Part shown: positions 6,563 to 11,997 of the stretch, piece after piece | How positions within the stretch are numbered: position 1 is the first letter of the stretch | How the letters are laid out: every line of letters begins with the position of its first letter | NCBI GenBank assembly: GCA_900498135.1 | Contig: LR026961.1 | Coordinates: 2,681,025-2,745,024, forward strand | Length of the DNA: 64,000 nt | Direction of reading: 5' to 3' | DNA from: an uncultured Desulfatiglans sp. | Lineage (GTDB): Bacteria; Desulfobacterota; DSM-4660; Desulfatiglandales; Desulfatiglandaceae | Position numbers and translations under genes: made by a program | The notes under the pieces: model-generated | Told to the model about the DNA's origin: nothing | Databases searched by the model: none | What the model saw: the letters and a program-made list of their open reading frames with translations, nothing else

Positions 6563-7312
6563 GTGAATAGAGCGCAACTGGAAGGCATTCTGAGGGAGTT
6601 GAAGCGCGGAGAGACCACCGTCGAGGCGTGTCTCGATCGCCTGAAATCGCTCCCGTTCGAGGACATGGGGTTCGCCTGTCTCGATCATCACCGTCCGCTG
6701 CGGCGCGGCGCGGCCGAAGTGATCTACGGCGAAGGGAAGGATGCCGCCGACATCCAGGCGATCATGGGTCGGATGATCGACGCGGGGGACAACGTCCTCG
6801 TGACCCGCCTCGCCCCCGAAAAGGCCGAGGTCCTCGAGCGGGCCTTCCCGGGAAGCGTCTATCACCCCCGCGGGCGCGTCCTCACGTTCAACCGCGAAAC
6901 ACCCGTCCCGAGCGGCCGGGGGACGATCCTCGTCGTGAGCGCCGGGACCTCCGATATTCCCGTGGCCGAGGAGGCAGCCGTCACGGCGCGCTTTCTCGGC
7001 AACACGGTGGAGACGCTCTTCGACGTAGGCGTCGCCGGGTTGCACCGGCTGCTTCGGGCGCAGGAGCGCCTGCGGCAGGCCTCGGTCATCATCGTGGTCG
7101 CCGGTATGGAAGGGGCGCTTCCGAGTGTGGTGGGCGGGCTCGTAGACCGGCCGGTCATCGCGGTGCCCACGAGCATTGGCTACGGCGCGGGTTTTCAGGG
7201 TCTGGCGGCGCTTCTCGGCATGCTCAATTCCTGCGCGGCCGGGGTGACGGTGGTCAACATCGACAACGGCTTCGGTGCCGGCTATGCGGCGAGCCTGATC
7301 AACCGGACCTGA
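6563..7312 (+). CDS. larB: LarB, pyridinium-3,5-biscarboxylate mononucleotide synthase
   Basis: LarB carboxylates nicotinic acid adenine dinucleotide as the first step toward the nickel-pincer nucleotide cofactor. The 249-residue length is typical. An N-terminal region is followed by a PurE-like (AIR carboxylase) domain from about residue 115, seen in ILVVSAGTSDIPVAEEA, IVVAGMEGALPSVVGGL and PTSIGYGAGFQG. It starts with GTG at 6563. Its 3' end overlaps the convergent radical SAM gene by 14 bases. larC lies about 40 kb away at 46.8 kb; larA and larE were not found in the window. The cofactor's client could be a LarA-type racemase or epimerase encoded elsewhere. Confidence 0.9.
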   Translation: MNRAQLEGILRELKRGETTVEACLDRLKSLPFEDMGFACLDHHRPLRRGAAEVIYGEGKDAADIQAIMGRMIDAGDNVLVTRLAPEKAEVLERAFPGSVYHPRGRVLTFNRETPVPSGRGTILVVSAGTSDIPVAEEAAVTARFLGNTVETLFDVGVAGLHRLLRAQERLRQASVIIVVAGMEGALPSVVGGLVDRPVIAVPTSIGYGAGFQGLAALLGMLNSCAAGVTVVNIDNGFGAGYAASLINRT

Positions 7313-8708
7313 AGTCGGCTTCGGCCGTGACGGCATGCGGCGGGCGGGCGCTGCGGTCCCGGACGGACTCGCGGATGGTGCGCAGCCTGCCCCTGAGTTC
7401 CGGCAGGCGGGCTCGTTCGCGTGCATCCCAGCAGGGGAGCAGGGTGTTGTTGTGAAACAGGGGCTCGCCGGCCAGGTCATAGGCCGAGGAAGCCCGGGCC
7501 GCCTCCCAGAGGGCCGTGTGCGGGATCGGCGAGTATTCCGATATGAAGGGCATGACGCCCGCCTTTTCCACCAGGGATAGGGCCGCGTGGACGGCCTCTC
7601 CGGTTTGCCCCGGCAGGCCGGCCAGGAGGTAGGCCCCGATCTCCGTCCCCTGGAAGCCGGCGTACAGAAGGTTTTCCACCGCCCTTTCGAATTCCCCCTG
7701 CCGCACCTTTTCGTCCATGCGCCGGTCTGAGAAATCCGCCGATTCGAGCCCCAGCCGGATGGTTCGGAACCCCGCCTGACGCATTAGGAAGGCGGTCTCA
7801 CGCGTGATCTCCCGGACATGGAGGGCGTTCGGGGTGTGGAAGCGGACGCCCGGCGCCTCGCCGGCGATCCCTTCGAGGAGACTCCGGATCGAGTCCCTGG
7901 GGCCGGCGAGGAGGGCGTCGTCGTAAAAGGCCATGTCAACGACGCCCATTTCACGGCTCCAATAGCGGATCTCGTCGACGACGTCTTGCGCTTCTCTGCG
8001 CGCCGTGCGCGGGTTCAGAAAGGGGCCTGCGCAGTAGCGGCAGCGGTAGGGGCAGCCCCGCGAGGCGAGCAGGCAGATGTAATCGAGGCCGTGGAGGAGA
8101 TCGAAGGCCGGGTAGGGGTGCAAGGGCTGCTTGCGCACCGACGCGGGCGGCGGGGGCAGCCCGAGGCGGGTCAGCAGGGCGATGAGCGCCTGCGGGTCGT
8201 CCTCGCAAATCACGTGATCGGCGCCGCTTGTTGCCGCGGCGTGCCGCCGGCAGAGGCGCGCGTAGATCCCTCCGAGGATTACCGGCGCCTTGGGATGCAC
8301 GGCGCGCGCCGCGGCGATGGCGGCCTTGACGCCCGGATACCAGTAGGTCATGAGAGAGGTCACCAGGATGGCGTCCGGTTCGGGGAGGGCGGCCAGATCC
8401 GCCTGAAAGGCGGCCGGGCTGATGCCATAGCGGCTGTAGGGGCGGGTGACGAAGCTCAGGCAGGCGGGCTTCGGAATCTCGAGGCGCGGGTATTTCCCCG
8501 TTCCGTAAAGACGCCGCTTGACCGCGGAGGTTCCCTCGCCCTCGAGCAAGGACGGGTGGTGGACGTCGAGGCAATCGATCAGATGGATGCGGTAGCCGCT
8601 TCGCCGCAGCGCTGCGGCCAGGGTGAGCAGGCCGAGCGGCTTGGCCCAGAGGTCATAGGCGGCGAAATCGTGGATCCAGGGGTTGATCAGGACCAGGGTC
8701 GGGCCCAT
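7299..8708 (-). CDS. B12-binding-domain radical SAM protein
   Basis: About 469 residues. An N-terminal Rossmann-like cobalamin-binding-type domain (LVLINPWIHDFAAYDLWAKP onward, with VILGGIYARLC near residue 170) is followed by a radical SAM domain whose cluster motif is CPYRCRYC near residue 225. Later features are IRLGLESAD and YLLAGLPGQTGE. The protein binds a [4Fe-4S] cluster and S-adenosylmethionine, but the substrate cannot be told. The ATG at 8708 is preferred, since the remaining upstream open frame is not conserved in style and GAAAGGAA lies about 10 bases before this ATG. The gene stands alone, convergent with larB and divergent from dtd. Confidence 0.85.
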   Translation of the reverse strand: MGPTLVLINPWIHDFAAYDLWAKPLGLLTLAAALRRSGYRIHLIDCLDVHHPSLLEGEGTSAVKRRLYGTGKYPRLEIPKPACLSFVTRPYSRYGISPAAFQADLAALPEPDAILVTSLMTYWYPGVKAAIAAARAVHPKAPVILGGIYARLCRRHAAATSGADHVICEDDPQALIALLTRLGLPPPPASVRKQPLHPYPAFDLLHGLDYICLLASRGCPYRCRYCAGPFLNPRTARREAQDVVDEIRYWSREMGVVDMAFYDDALLAGPRDSIRSLLEGIAGEAPGVRFHTPNALHVREITRETAFLMRQAGFRTIRLGLESADFSDRRMDEKVRQGEFERAVENLLYAGFQGTEIGAYLLAGLPGQTGEAVHAALSLVEKAGVMPFISEYSPIPHTALWEAARASSAYDLAGEPLFHNNTLLPCWDARERARLPELRGRLRTIRESVRDRSARPPHAVTAEADFRSG

Positions 8709-8911
8709 CGGAGGCGGTTCCTTTCGTTTGAATGTATCCTGCGCAGCCGGTTCGCCGGCGCGACGCACCGTCCCTGCGCCCCGCAAATCTGCGACCGAGC
8801 GGGTCCGCGAGGTTTAGGTGCCGGCTGTAAGTTCCTGGGACCGGCCCGATCGCCCGCATGGCCTCTAGCCCGTTCAAGCAACCTCGGTCTTTCAAGGGAG
8901 GCTTTTAGACG

Positions 8912-9775: not shown

Positions 9776-11248
9776 TCAGCCGCTGCTCAGTCCGCGCCGC
9801 CAGAGATACAGGGCGATGCCGGCGGCGAGCGCGGCGTTCAGCGATTCGACGCCGCGTGCCATGGGGATCGAGAGCGTCTCGGCCTCTGCCAGGGCGTCGG
9901 TCAGCCCGGGGCCCTCGAGGCCCGGTATCAGACAGAAGCGCTCCGGAAAACGGAACCGCCCGATGTCGCGCCCTGCCGGTGAGAGGGCGATCAGCGGGAG
10001 CCGGTCCGGCTGGAGCGCCTCGATGGACGGCCCCTCAAGCAGCGGCACCCGGAAAAGGGTGCTGCCCGCCGCCCGTACGGCCTTCGGGTGGAAGGGGTGC
10101 GAGGCTTCCTGCAGGAGCACGACGCGGTCTACCGCGAAGGCGGCGGCCGTGCGGATGACGGCCCCGACGTTGGCCGGGTCCTGGAACGGGACGAGCAGGG
10201 TGCAGCCCGGCGGCGCGCCGGCCGCGGACCATGTTTCCATCGAGGGCGGGCGCACGAGGAGGACCGGGTAGCGCGTGTCGAAGAGGTCGATCTGGCGGAA
10301 GAGCTCCCGGGCGAGCGCATAGGCCGGCAGGCCGTCCGGCAGGGGAAGGTCCGGCGCGTCTTCCCCCTGGCAGTAGATGATGCCGGCGGTCTGCGCCGCA
10401 AAGTCCGCGAGGACCTCGGCGATGTTTTTCGCCCCCCAGAAGAGGGCGGTTCCGAGCTTTTTGATCCCGCGCGCCCGGGTCATTTTCTGGAGGTCTTTGA
10501 AGAAGGGATTGGCCGCGCTGGTGATCTCCGCAACCTCTCGCTGCGGGGCGGCTGCCGCGCGCGGTGCGGCCCCGGCCGTCAGCGGTCTTCGCATCCGCGG
10601 CCCGGCCCCCTCCCGGCGTTTGAAGACGATGAGGCGGCGGCGGTGCGGGGTCTGCGGAATGATGTAAGCGATGTCCCTTTTCAGCTCATAGGTCTCCCCG
10701 AGCCGCCTCGATGCCTCTGCGAGTTCCTCGTCGCAGTGCGGTCCCTTCATGAGGATCACATCTCCCCCCGGGGGCAGAAAGGGCTCCACCCGCGCAAGCG
10801 TCCTCCCGATGGTTTCCACCGCCCGGGTGATAACCCCCTGGACCGGGAGGTCGAAATCGGGTTTAATGGTGGCATGAACGATGGTGACCCCGGACAGCCC
10901 CAGGAGATCGCAGACCTCCTGGAGAAAATCGACCCGTTTTCGGCGACCCTCGGCCAGGATCAGTTCGACCTCCGGCCGCCGGATCTTGATGGGGATGCCG
11001 GGAAACCCCGCGCCCGAGCCGATGTCGAGGAGCGGGGAGGGCAGGTCGATCAGTTGGGGCACCAGGGAGCAGTCTACATAGTGTTTGAGGACCATGTTGT
11101 CGAAATGGGTGATCCGCGTCAGGTCGAGTTCGGCGTTCCGTTCGCGCAGGTGCGTGTGGAACTGCCAGAACTGCCTGGCCTCCTGCTCCGAAAGGGTAAT
11201 GCCGCTGCGCTCGAAGAGGGCGATCATGGCCTTGAGGCCTGGACGCAT
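9776..11248 (-). CDS. RsmG - SpoU/TrmH RNA methyltransferase fusion
   Basis: A 490-residue fusion of two RNA methyltransferases. Residues 1-215 are RsmG, which makes m7G527 in 16S rRNA: LTRITHFDNMVLKHYVDC and the SAM loop LLDIGSGAGFPGIP are present. After a linker of about 30 residues rich in Ala, Pro and Arg, residues 240-490 form a SpoU-class (SPOUT) enzyme with an N-terminal substrate-binding domain and the knot motifs VPFQDPANVGAVIRTAAAF, IPGLEGPGL and IPMARGVESLNAALAAGI. The target of the second domain is unknown. The ATG at 11248 has AGAGGAG 5-6 bases upstream. The reading frame is unbroken, so the fusion does not depend on a frameshift. Confidence 0.85.
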   Translation of the reverse strand: MRPGLKAMIALFERSGITLSEQEARQFWQFHTHLRERNAELDLTRITHFDNMVLKHYVDCSLVPQLIDLPSPLLDIGSGAGFPGIPIKIRRPEVELILAEGRRKRVDFLQEVCDLLGLSGVTIVHATIKPDFDLPVQGVITRAVETIGRTLARVEPFLPPGGDVILMKGPHCDEELAEASRRLGETYELKRDIAYIIPQTPHRRRLIVFKRREGAGPRMRRPLTAGAAPRAAAAPQREVAEITSAANPFFKDLQKMTRARGIKKLGTALFWGAKNIAEVLADFAAQTAGIIYCQGEDAPDLPLPDGLPAYALARELFRQIDLFDTRYPVLLVRPPSMETWSAAGAPPGCTLLVPFQDPANVGAVIRTAAAFAVDRVVLLQEASHPFHPKAVRAAGSTLFRVPLLEGPSIEALQPDRLPLIALSPAGRDIGRFRFPERFCLIPGLEGPGLTDALAEAETLSIPMARGVESLNAALAAGIALYLWRRGLSSG

Positions 11249-11313
11249 GGGGTCTCCTCTCATGGGGTTGCGTTTCGCGCCGGCGCCGCCGGTCCGGAAG
11301 CGGGTGGTTCGAG

Positions 11314-11997
11314 ATGATCGGTCATCGAGAGACGGTTCGGGTCCTCTACGAGGACAACCACCTGCTGGGGCTTTACAAGCCGGCCGGGATGCTGGTGCAG
11401 GGCGACCACACCGGGGATTACTCGCTTCTGGATTGGGCGAAGGACTATATCCGGGCGCGTTACGCCAAGCCCGGCGAGGTCTTCGTGGGGCTGGTGCACC
11501 GGCTGGATCGCCCGGTTGCGGGGGTGGTCCTCCTGGCGCGCACCTCCAAGGCGGCGCGGCGGCTTTCGGAACAGTTCCGTGAGCGGAGCTGCCGGAAGAT
11601 CTATCGTGCCGTTGTCGTCGGCACGCCGCAACCCGTCGAAGGCGCCCTGACCGCCTATGTGAGCTGGAACGGAAAAAGGGCGCTCATCGTACCAGCAGAG
11701 CACCCTGATGCAAAAAAGGCCGAACTGCGCTATCGAACCCTGGACCAGGCGGGCGGATCGAGCCTGGTCGAGGTCGAACTTCTGAGCGGGCGCCACCACC
11801 AGATCCGGTTGCAGCTCGCCTCCATCGGCTGTCCCATTCTCGGAGACCGGCTTTACGGCGGCACGGCCAAAGGAAAAACCGGGCTCCTCGCGCTCCTGGC
11901 CTACAGCCTGACGGTCCGCCATCCTACCCGGGACGAAGCGGTCACCCTCGTTTCCCCGATCCCGCTCGCCTGGCCCTGGCCTCCCGGCAAGGACTGA
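11314..11997 (+). CDS. RluA-family pseudouridine synthase
   Basis: A 227-residue RNA pseudouridine synthase of the RluA family, without an S4 domain, as in the short RluA/TruC-like forms. The catalytic aspartate lies in VHRLDRPVAGVVLLART near residue 65; the C-terminal motif LLSGRHHQIRLQLASIGCPI and DRLYGG are present. It converts specific uridines in rRNA or tRNA, but the target cannot be assigned. It is divergent from the methyltransferase fusion, giving a local group of RNA-modification genes. Confidence 0.85.
   Translation: MIGHRETVRVLYEDNHLLGLYKPAGMLVQGDHTGDYSLLDWAKDYIRARYAKPGEVFVGLVHRLDRPVAGVVLLARTSKAARRLSEQFRERSCRKIYRAVVVGTPQPVEGALTAYVSWNGKRALIVPAEHPDAKKAELRYRTLDQAGGSSLVEVELLSGRHHQIRLQLASIGCPILGDRLYGGTAKGKTGLLALLAYSLTVRHPTRDEAVTLVSPIPLAWPWPPGKD

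Follow-up and report, generated by a model that had tools for sequence, protein, structure and literature searches.

A separate clade of RsmG-like domains, fused to a SpoU-type methyltransferase, recurs across many bacterial groups

RsmG commonly serves as a well-conserved indicator of 16S m7G527, and losing it is regarded as one cause of low-level streptomycin resistance. In the genome of an uncultured Desulfatiglans sp., a gene with an RsmG-type N-terminus and a SpoU-type C-terminus raises the question of what each half does, and whether the first half is RsmG at all. The gene lies in a 64,000-nucleotide stretch of DNA, referred to here as the window (Table 1). A sequence-only reading had claimed that one unbroken frame joins two methyltransferase domains of different folds through an Ala/Pro/Arg linker, and our analysis bears this out. 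The open-frame translation gives a single uninterrupted gene of 490 codons (490 aa), which starts with ATG at 11248, just downstream of an AGAGGAG ribosome site, and stops with TGA at 9778-9776. Both Pfam matches lie far above their cut-offs (GidB PF02527 at aa 25-183, 114.8 bits versus 27; SpoU PF00588 at aa 352-481, 86.6 bits versus 29.7), the linker is present at about aa 213-238, and the two folds are supported by structure matches as well as Pfam, with catalytic residues conserved in both.

Table 1 Features of the fusion gene and its neighbour in the window.
Feature	Position	Strand	Basis
RsmG-like/SpoU fusion gene, 490 aa	9776..11248 (stop 9776-9778 included)	-	Open frame, Pfam, relatives
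RsmG/GidB-like domain, aa 1-215, Rossmann methyltransferase of RsmG-B clade	10604..11248	-	PF02527, 1xdz/3g8b fold, tree clade
Ala/Pro/Arg-rich linker, aa 216-238, middle predicted disordered	10535..10603	-	pLDDT < 50 at 219-233
L30e-like RNA-binding subdomain, aa 239-348	10205..10534	-	7qiu aligned over model 238-485, 9h1k over 239-490
SPOUT (SpoU) catalytic domain, aa 349-490, motif residues N360, R366, E445, S469, N471	9779..10204	-	Pfam, alignment
RluA-family pseudouridine synthase, divergent	11314..11997	+	PF00849; recurs beside RsmG-like half in many carriers

Other frames were seen close to the gene. A 409-aa frame antisense to it (window 10088-11317, +) is probably a by-product of high GC rather than a gene. 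A B12-binding radical SAM protein is encoded nearby (window 7299-8786, -), and in G040, a genome of another family, a frame whose N-terminus is similar by eye (L041 8607-8999) starts about 3 kb from the fusion.

Relatives were drawn from three sets: a survey of 61 genomes (the window's own and others from the same genus, family and order), 118 genomes sampled evenly across the phylum, and a scan of a species-genome collection, from which the best 80 of 125 relatives were kept as named loci (about ten of these share contigs with the 61-genome survey). Across these sets the architecture is widespread, both active sites are conserved, the RsmG-like domain belongs to a separate clade (RsmG-B), and a pseudouridine-synthase gene is a recurrent neighbour. 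We think it probable that the protein is a bifunctional rRNA methyltransferase, combining an active RsmG-B half that would methylate N7 of guanine with an active RlmP-like 2'-O-methylating half, and that the unfused copy serves as the ordinary RsmG.

The N-half had been read as "the" 16S m7G527 methyltransferase. This label is doubtful and is not supported as stated, since the domain falls in a separate clade and a second GidB gene of the genome groups with known RsmG. When 150 N-domains were placed on a tree, the 83 rows that are fused or of RsmG-B type came out together as a single clade (SH-aLRT 100). A bootstrapped tree of 86 thinned rows, from which the long L223, L224, L208 and L045 were left out, separated 43 RsmG-B rows from 43 others with a split of 100/100; RsmG from E. 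coli, B. subtilis, T. thermophilus and M. tuberculosis (three of these four rows being partial segments) and 13 mnmG-linked copies lay on the opposite side from RsmG-B, with a bootstrap correlation (0.926) that had not settled. The N-domain tree has no root, so the clade could be sister to RsmG as a whole or a fast-evolving lineage that arose inside it; the branch leading to RsmG-B is long. Going by these comparisons, the N-half looks like a sister of RsmG rather than RsmG itself. The second, unfused GidB gene of the window's genome (C1:1321891-1322352) is, by its grouping with known RsmG, the likely ordinary RsmG. The other GidB copy adjoins mnmG in five carriers (L220, L158, L222, L221 and L159), as in E. 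coli, and no mnmG match was found beside the ordinary copy of the window's own genome in L040.

A rival reading, which we take seriously and rate somewhat short of even, is that the N-half makes 16S m7G527, either redundantly with the other GidB copy or in its place, the fusion just coupling 16S and 23S methylation. The fold and the invariant catalytic positions are those of RsmG: all 83 RsmG-B domains share D56, D71, R101, R139, K165, G166 and R197 (E. coli numbering), and we take R123, R139, K165 and R197 to be catalytic or functional positions of that enzyme. The NCBI RsmG equivalog model (TIGR00138, cut-off 99.5 bits) accepts both the fused copy (111.2 bits) and the unfused one (114.5 bits). 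Among 34 carriers tested from the genomes behind the best 80 of 125 loci, the fusion was the single GidB match in nine, whose completeness is unstated, and G104 and G140, each 99% complete, likewise had no GidB match besides it. Finding the fusion alone is no proof of an m7G527 role, however, because 12 of the 118 genomes in the phylum sample lack any RsmG, with no GidB match over the cut-off. The other 25 of the 34 carriers each had two or more GidB matches above the cut-off (the extra matches in G066 are fragments), which, like the separate clade and long branch of the fused N-domain, stands against the m7G527 role.

The condition of the ordinary copies bears on the same question. We compared 104 of these, 36 from genomes with RsmG-B and 68 from genomes without; K or R occupied position 165 in 8/36 and 35/68, respectively, which leans a little towards the fusion making m7G527. 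Within the window's order, the corresponding counts were 0/13 in carriers and 9/35 in genomes without RsmG-B (seven of these nine from one family), but D56 and R197 of the ordinary copy were intact in 13/13 carriers, and the loss of K165 in all 13 was matched in 26 of the 35 non-carriers (L049, L204, L236-L255 and L258-L270), where the replacement was mostly Q or L. Because K165 is also lost in these non-carriers, lineage may explain the decay in this order, and we do not count it there as support for a takeover of m7G527 by the fusion. The alignments also suggest that lysine at 165 may not be needed in all RsmG. The mnmG-linked copies of four carriers (L220, L158, L221 and L222) had lost D56 (4/4), K165 (4/4) and, by alignment, R197 (3/4), as if released and no longer working as RsmG; three of them are titled spirochaete and one is unlabelled, all belong to one tree group, and they have no fusion-free spirochaete control. 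The separate clade, the usual presence of a second GidB and the 23S-type partners of the domain all point to a possible target other than G527.

The predicted structure agrees with two enzymes on one chain. An AlphaFold2 model built from 54 fused sequences had a mean pLDDT of 91.7 (at least 90 at 389 of 490 residues) and consisted of two well-ordered modules, the sole disordered stretch being residues 219-233 (pLDDT under 50). The pTM of the model was 0.61, so it does not fix the placing of the modules relative to each other. Treating Z-scores within 1 of each other as ties, the N-module matched the RsmG crystal structures 1xdz (Z 25.7, rmsd 2.8 over 217) and 3g8b (Z 25.1, rmsd 2.4 over 215), while the C-module matched RlmP 7qiu (Z 24.4, rmsd 2.8 over 241), S. 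meliloti 5kzk (Z 24.4, rmsd 3.2 over 245) and RlmR 9h1k (Z 24.1, rmsd 3.2 over 248), in each case at full length.

Two L30e-SPOUT enzymes serve for comparison with the C-half: RlmP (YsgA) makes 23S Gm2553 and RlmR makes 23S Um2552. The C-half, described earlier as a 2'-O-methyltransferase-like SPOUT enzyme, has an L30e-like domain followed by SPOUT with motifs I-III. N360, G362, R366, E445, S469 and N471 were invariant in 74/74 fusions, and the active sites of both halves look intact in alignment. The RlmR residue aligned with R366 is R128, a catalytic arginine; according to excerpts of PMC12123411, little activity is left when it is replaced by alanine. The same excerpts supply the L30-like name for the corresponding part of RlmP and RlmR. 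By sequence, the nearest solved structures to the C-half were YsgA/RlmP, S. meliloti 5kzk and RlmR. Of 17 RNA-contact positions of RlmR compared, ten differ between RlmP and RlmR; at these ten, the commonest letter in the fusions was that of RlmP at four (E278, T325, Q356 and E468), that of RlmR at none, and that of neither at six. In the C-domain tree, RlmP, AviRb and the fusions met at one fork without a resolved order, nor did the tree settle where the fusions stand relative to RlmR. By sequence RlmP is the nearest among solved structures, and the resemblance in residues is partial.

Two other identities were considered for the C-half. An RlmB (23S Gm2251) identity was rejected, with a score of 54.9 bits against the NCBI RlmB equivalog (TIGR00186, cut-off 160.15) and a separate gene of the genome (L003) that groups with E. 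coli RlmB. Um2552 is a less likely target because the window's genome contains two strong matches to the FtsJ/RlmE family (153 and 149 bits); the contact residues also lean to RlmP.

The divergent pseudouridine synthase encoded beside the fusion matched the RluA subfamily best among NCBI models, at a score below that model's cut-off, and its best solved-structure matches were RluA, RluC and RluD. We counted a homologue as a neighbour if it ended at most 900 bases from the start of the domain on the opposite strand, a limit that misses L085, L093, L095, L101 and L102, where the neighbour is seen. Among the best 80 of 125 loci, such a homologue lay beside 49 of 71 fusions (a total that includes the broken L127; the homologue was missing at 20, and two had no room), beside 4/4 lone RsmG-B genes and beside 0/5 loci with the halves in separate frames. 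At the threshold used, no homologue was seen at the spirochaete loci, nor at L119, the planctomycete locus with room. No pseudouridine synthase was found beside the lone SPOUT gene in 20 loci (19 with 1.36-1.58 kb upstream, and L036 without any). Presence at RsmG-B loci and absence beside lone SPOUT genes indicate that the pseudouridine synthase follows the RsmG half.

From the observations on both halves we infer an activity, dimerisation, substrates and timing for the bifunctional enzyme. The N-half would be catalytically active, a class I methyltransferase from an old clade of RsmG paralogs that most likely methylates N7 of an rRNA guanine. The C-half would likewise be active, as an L30e-SPOUT 2'-O-methyltransferase that resembles RlmP most and probably works as a dimer on the 23S A-loop (Gm2553-like). 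The flexible linker would tether the halves, in which case SPOUT dimerisation would gather two RsmG-B and two SPOUT sites. The substrate would be early, largely naked rRNA. Excerpts of PMC12123411 describe RlmR as a dimer that methylates protein-free RNA and not 50S or 70S, and because of this the fusion enzyme, too, probably acts early in assembly.

A bolder proposal, which we put forward tentatively, is that RsmG-B has been redirected to the large subunit and methylates N7 of a 23S guanine near the SPOUT site; with the pseudouridine synthase, the two activities would then serve one region early in assembly. What favours this is that the SPOUT half resembles 23S A-loop enzymes, that the neighbour resembles RluA, RluC and RluD, and that a second GidB is usual. 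If it were true, RsmG-B would represent a new m7G methyltransferase class, filed in databases under the name RsmG.

The SPOUT half might instead be the sole catalyst, with the RsmG-like half reduced to an RNA-binding or positioning module. Of the 21 relatives in the 61-genome survey that have an unfused SPOUT half, 18 yielded no RsmG-B, though many of these assemblies are incomplete, and three residues usual in ordinary copies are not conserved in RsmG-B (W34 in 0/83, E125 in 0/83 and R123 in 12/83 domains). We nevertheless regard this as improbable given that the SAM-binding glycines, R139, K165 and R197 are invariant in 83/83 RsmG-B domains, a stricter conservation than in the ordinary copies.

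The fusion arrangement is real and common to many bacterial groups. A search of relatives for the same architecture, which the sequence-only reading had suggested, found it uninterrupted in a genome of the same genus (G001, 94% identity to the window protein) and in 70 of the best 80 of 125 loci (one of them, L060, reaching the contig end); in the remaining loci the gene was broken inside the RsmG half (L127), the RsmG half stood alone (four), or the halves were in separate frames (L122, L124, L126, L130 and L135). That two genes were joined in annotation or sequencing through a lost stop, or that the gene is a chimera, is therefore practically inconceivable: the same fusion recurs uninterrupted in the same genus and many groups, and we found nothing in favour of an artefact, though relatives do have separate genes. 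Separate genes in close relatives, together with evidence of a sequencing error, had been named as what would tell against the fusion; the separate genes exist (19 lone SpoU-type and 3 lone RsmG-like), while no evidence of such an error was found.

One-frame fusions were present in 10 of the 61 surveyed genomes, across three families, and in four of the 118 genomes sampled from the phylum (G000, G007, G104 and G140). In that sample, copies lacking a long frame were classified only where their sequence was retrieved, so the count does not cover lone RsmG-B genes. Record titles among the best 80 of 125 loci include Desulfosarcina, Desulfacinum, Desulfatitalea, Desulforhabdus and Syntrophobacteraceae as well as Spirochaetes, Planctomycetes, Latescibacterota, Leptospiraceae and Bdellovibrionota, and the carriers include the named isolates Desulfosarcina widdelii, D. 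alkanivorans, Desulfacinum infernum and Desulfatitalea alkaliphila. Among 62 phage records matching the fusion query, none covered 80% of it. Two records call for comment in their own right. In Desulfosarcina cetonica JCM 12296 (L135 5968-7409) the halves are out of frame, unlike in D. widdelii and D. alkanivorans, which may reflect either a sequence error or a real break. L111 (CAMDBH010000012.1) is titled as a Klebsiella pneumoniae MAG, a species label that is probably wrong; its fusion N-domain groups with that of a MAG labelled Myxococcales.

The unfused halves give some indication of the history of the gene. The SPOUT half is a separate gene in 19 relatives of the 61-genome survey and is present as pieces in two more (G029 and G035); among these 21, three carry a lone RsmG-B as well, on a different contig. 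All five genomes with a lone RsmG-B, which form one small group on the tree, also have a lone SPOUT gene, and in the named genomes G208 and G209 a further GidB match is present as well. This co-occurrence is suggestive, and among the genomes examined there was no RsmG-B without a SPOUT relative. Outside Bdellovibrionota, lone RsmG-B copies nest among the fusions in the N-domain tree, and lone SPOUT copies lie among the fusions in the C-domain tree, partly at weak forks. Copies from Bdellovibrionota group among themselves on both trees, at open forks. In four loci of this group (L122, L124, L126 and L130), the RsmG-B gene directly neighbours the SPOUT gene, in frame with it and one stop away, and a plausible new start follows closely on the stop of the RsmG half; either a split fusion or an unfused ancestral pair would fit this arrangement. 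We read these trees as a single old association with later fission and loss of the RsmG half, in an order of events that is unproved.

If the name RsmG covers two old paralogs, one of which is tied to a SPOUT enzyme, m7G527 cannot safely be called from annotation in carriers among Desulfobacterota, spirochaetes and other groups. In that case a bifunctional enzyme, which may connect two methylations of rRNA, has also escaped notice. Two-activity rRNA methyltransferase fusions such as RlmKL and SPOUT fusions are already known, and the protein sequences themselves are in public records. What is added here is that the RsmG-like/SpoU protein forms a separate, widespread clade with a recurrent partner. 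Among the papers listed by our searches of open-licence PubMed Central, none described the RsmG-SpoU fusion or the RsmG-B paralog clade in its title or the start of its abstract.

Among known systems, RsmG/GidB (1xdz, 3g8b, 1jsx and 7cfe) has the same fold as residues 1-219 of the fusion (Z 22.9-25.7) and shares the catalytic positions R139, K165 and R197 with the N-half, whereas the N-half differs in its separate clade, its lack of W34 and E125 (0/83) and usually R123 (12/83), its fusion to SPOUT, and the second GidB in 25/34 carriers. RlmP and RlmR share the L30e plus SPOUT fold and the motif residues with the C-half (7qiu Z 24.4; 9h1k Z 24.1), to which they are 27% and 22% identical, respectively, in structural alignments; unlike them, the fusion has a second methyltransferase at its N-terminus and a C-half whose target is predicted. 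SPOUT modules fused to other modules, among them TrmD-COG4752, are described in excerpts of PMC1829167, deltaproteobacteria included, and the RsmG-like/SpoU fusion resembles that type; neither GidB nor RsmG is mentioned in the main text of that paper. A further parallel is RlmKL (23S m7G2069 and m2G2445), which excerpts of PMC4119055 call a fused-domain enzyme and list as class I. Like RlmKL, the fusion carries two rRNA methyltransferase domains on one chain, with m7G formation among the activities of RlmKL and predicted for the fusion, but where RlmKL is class I, the fusion joins a class I domain to a SPOUT domain.
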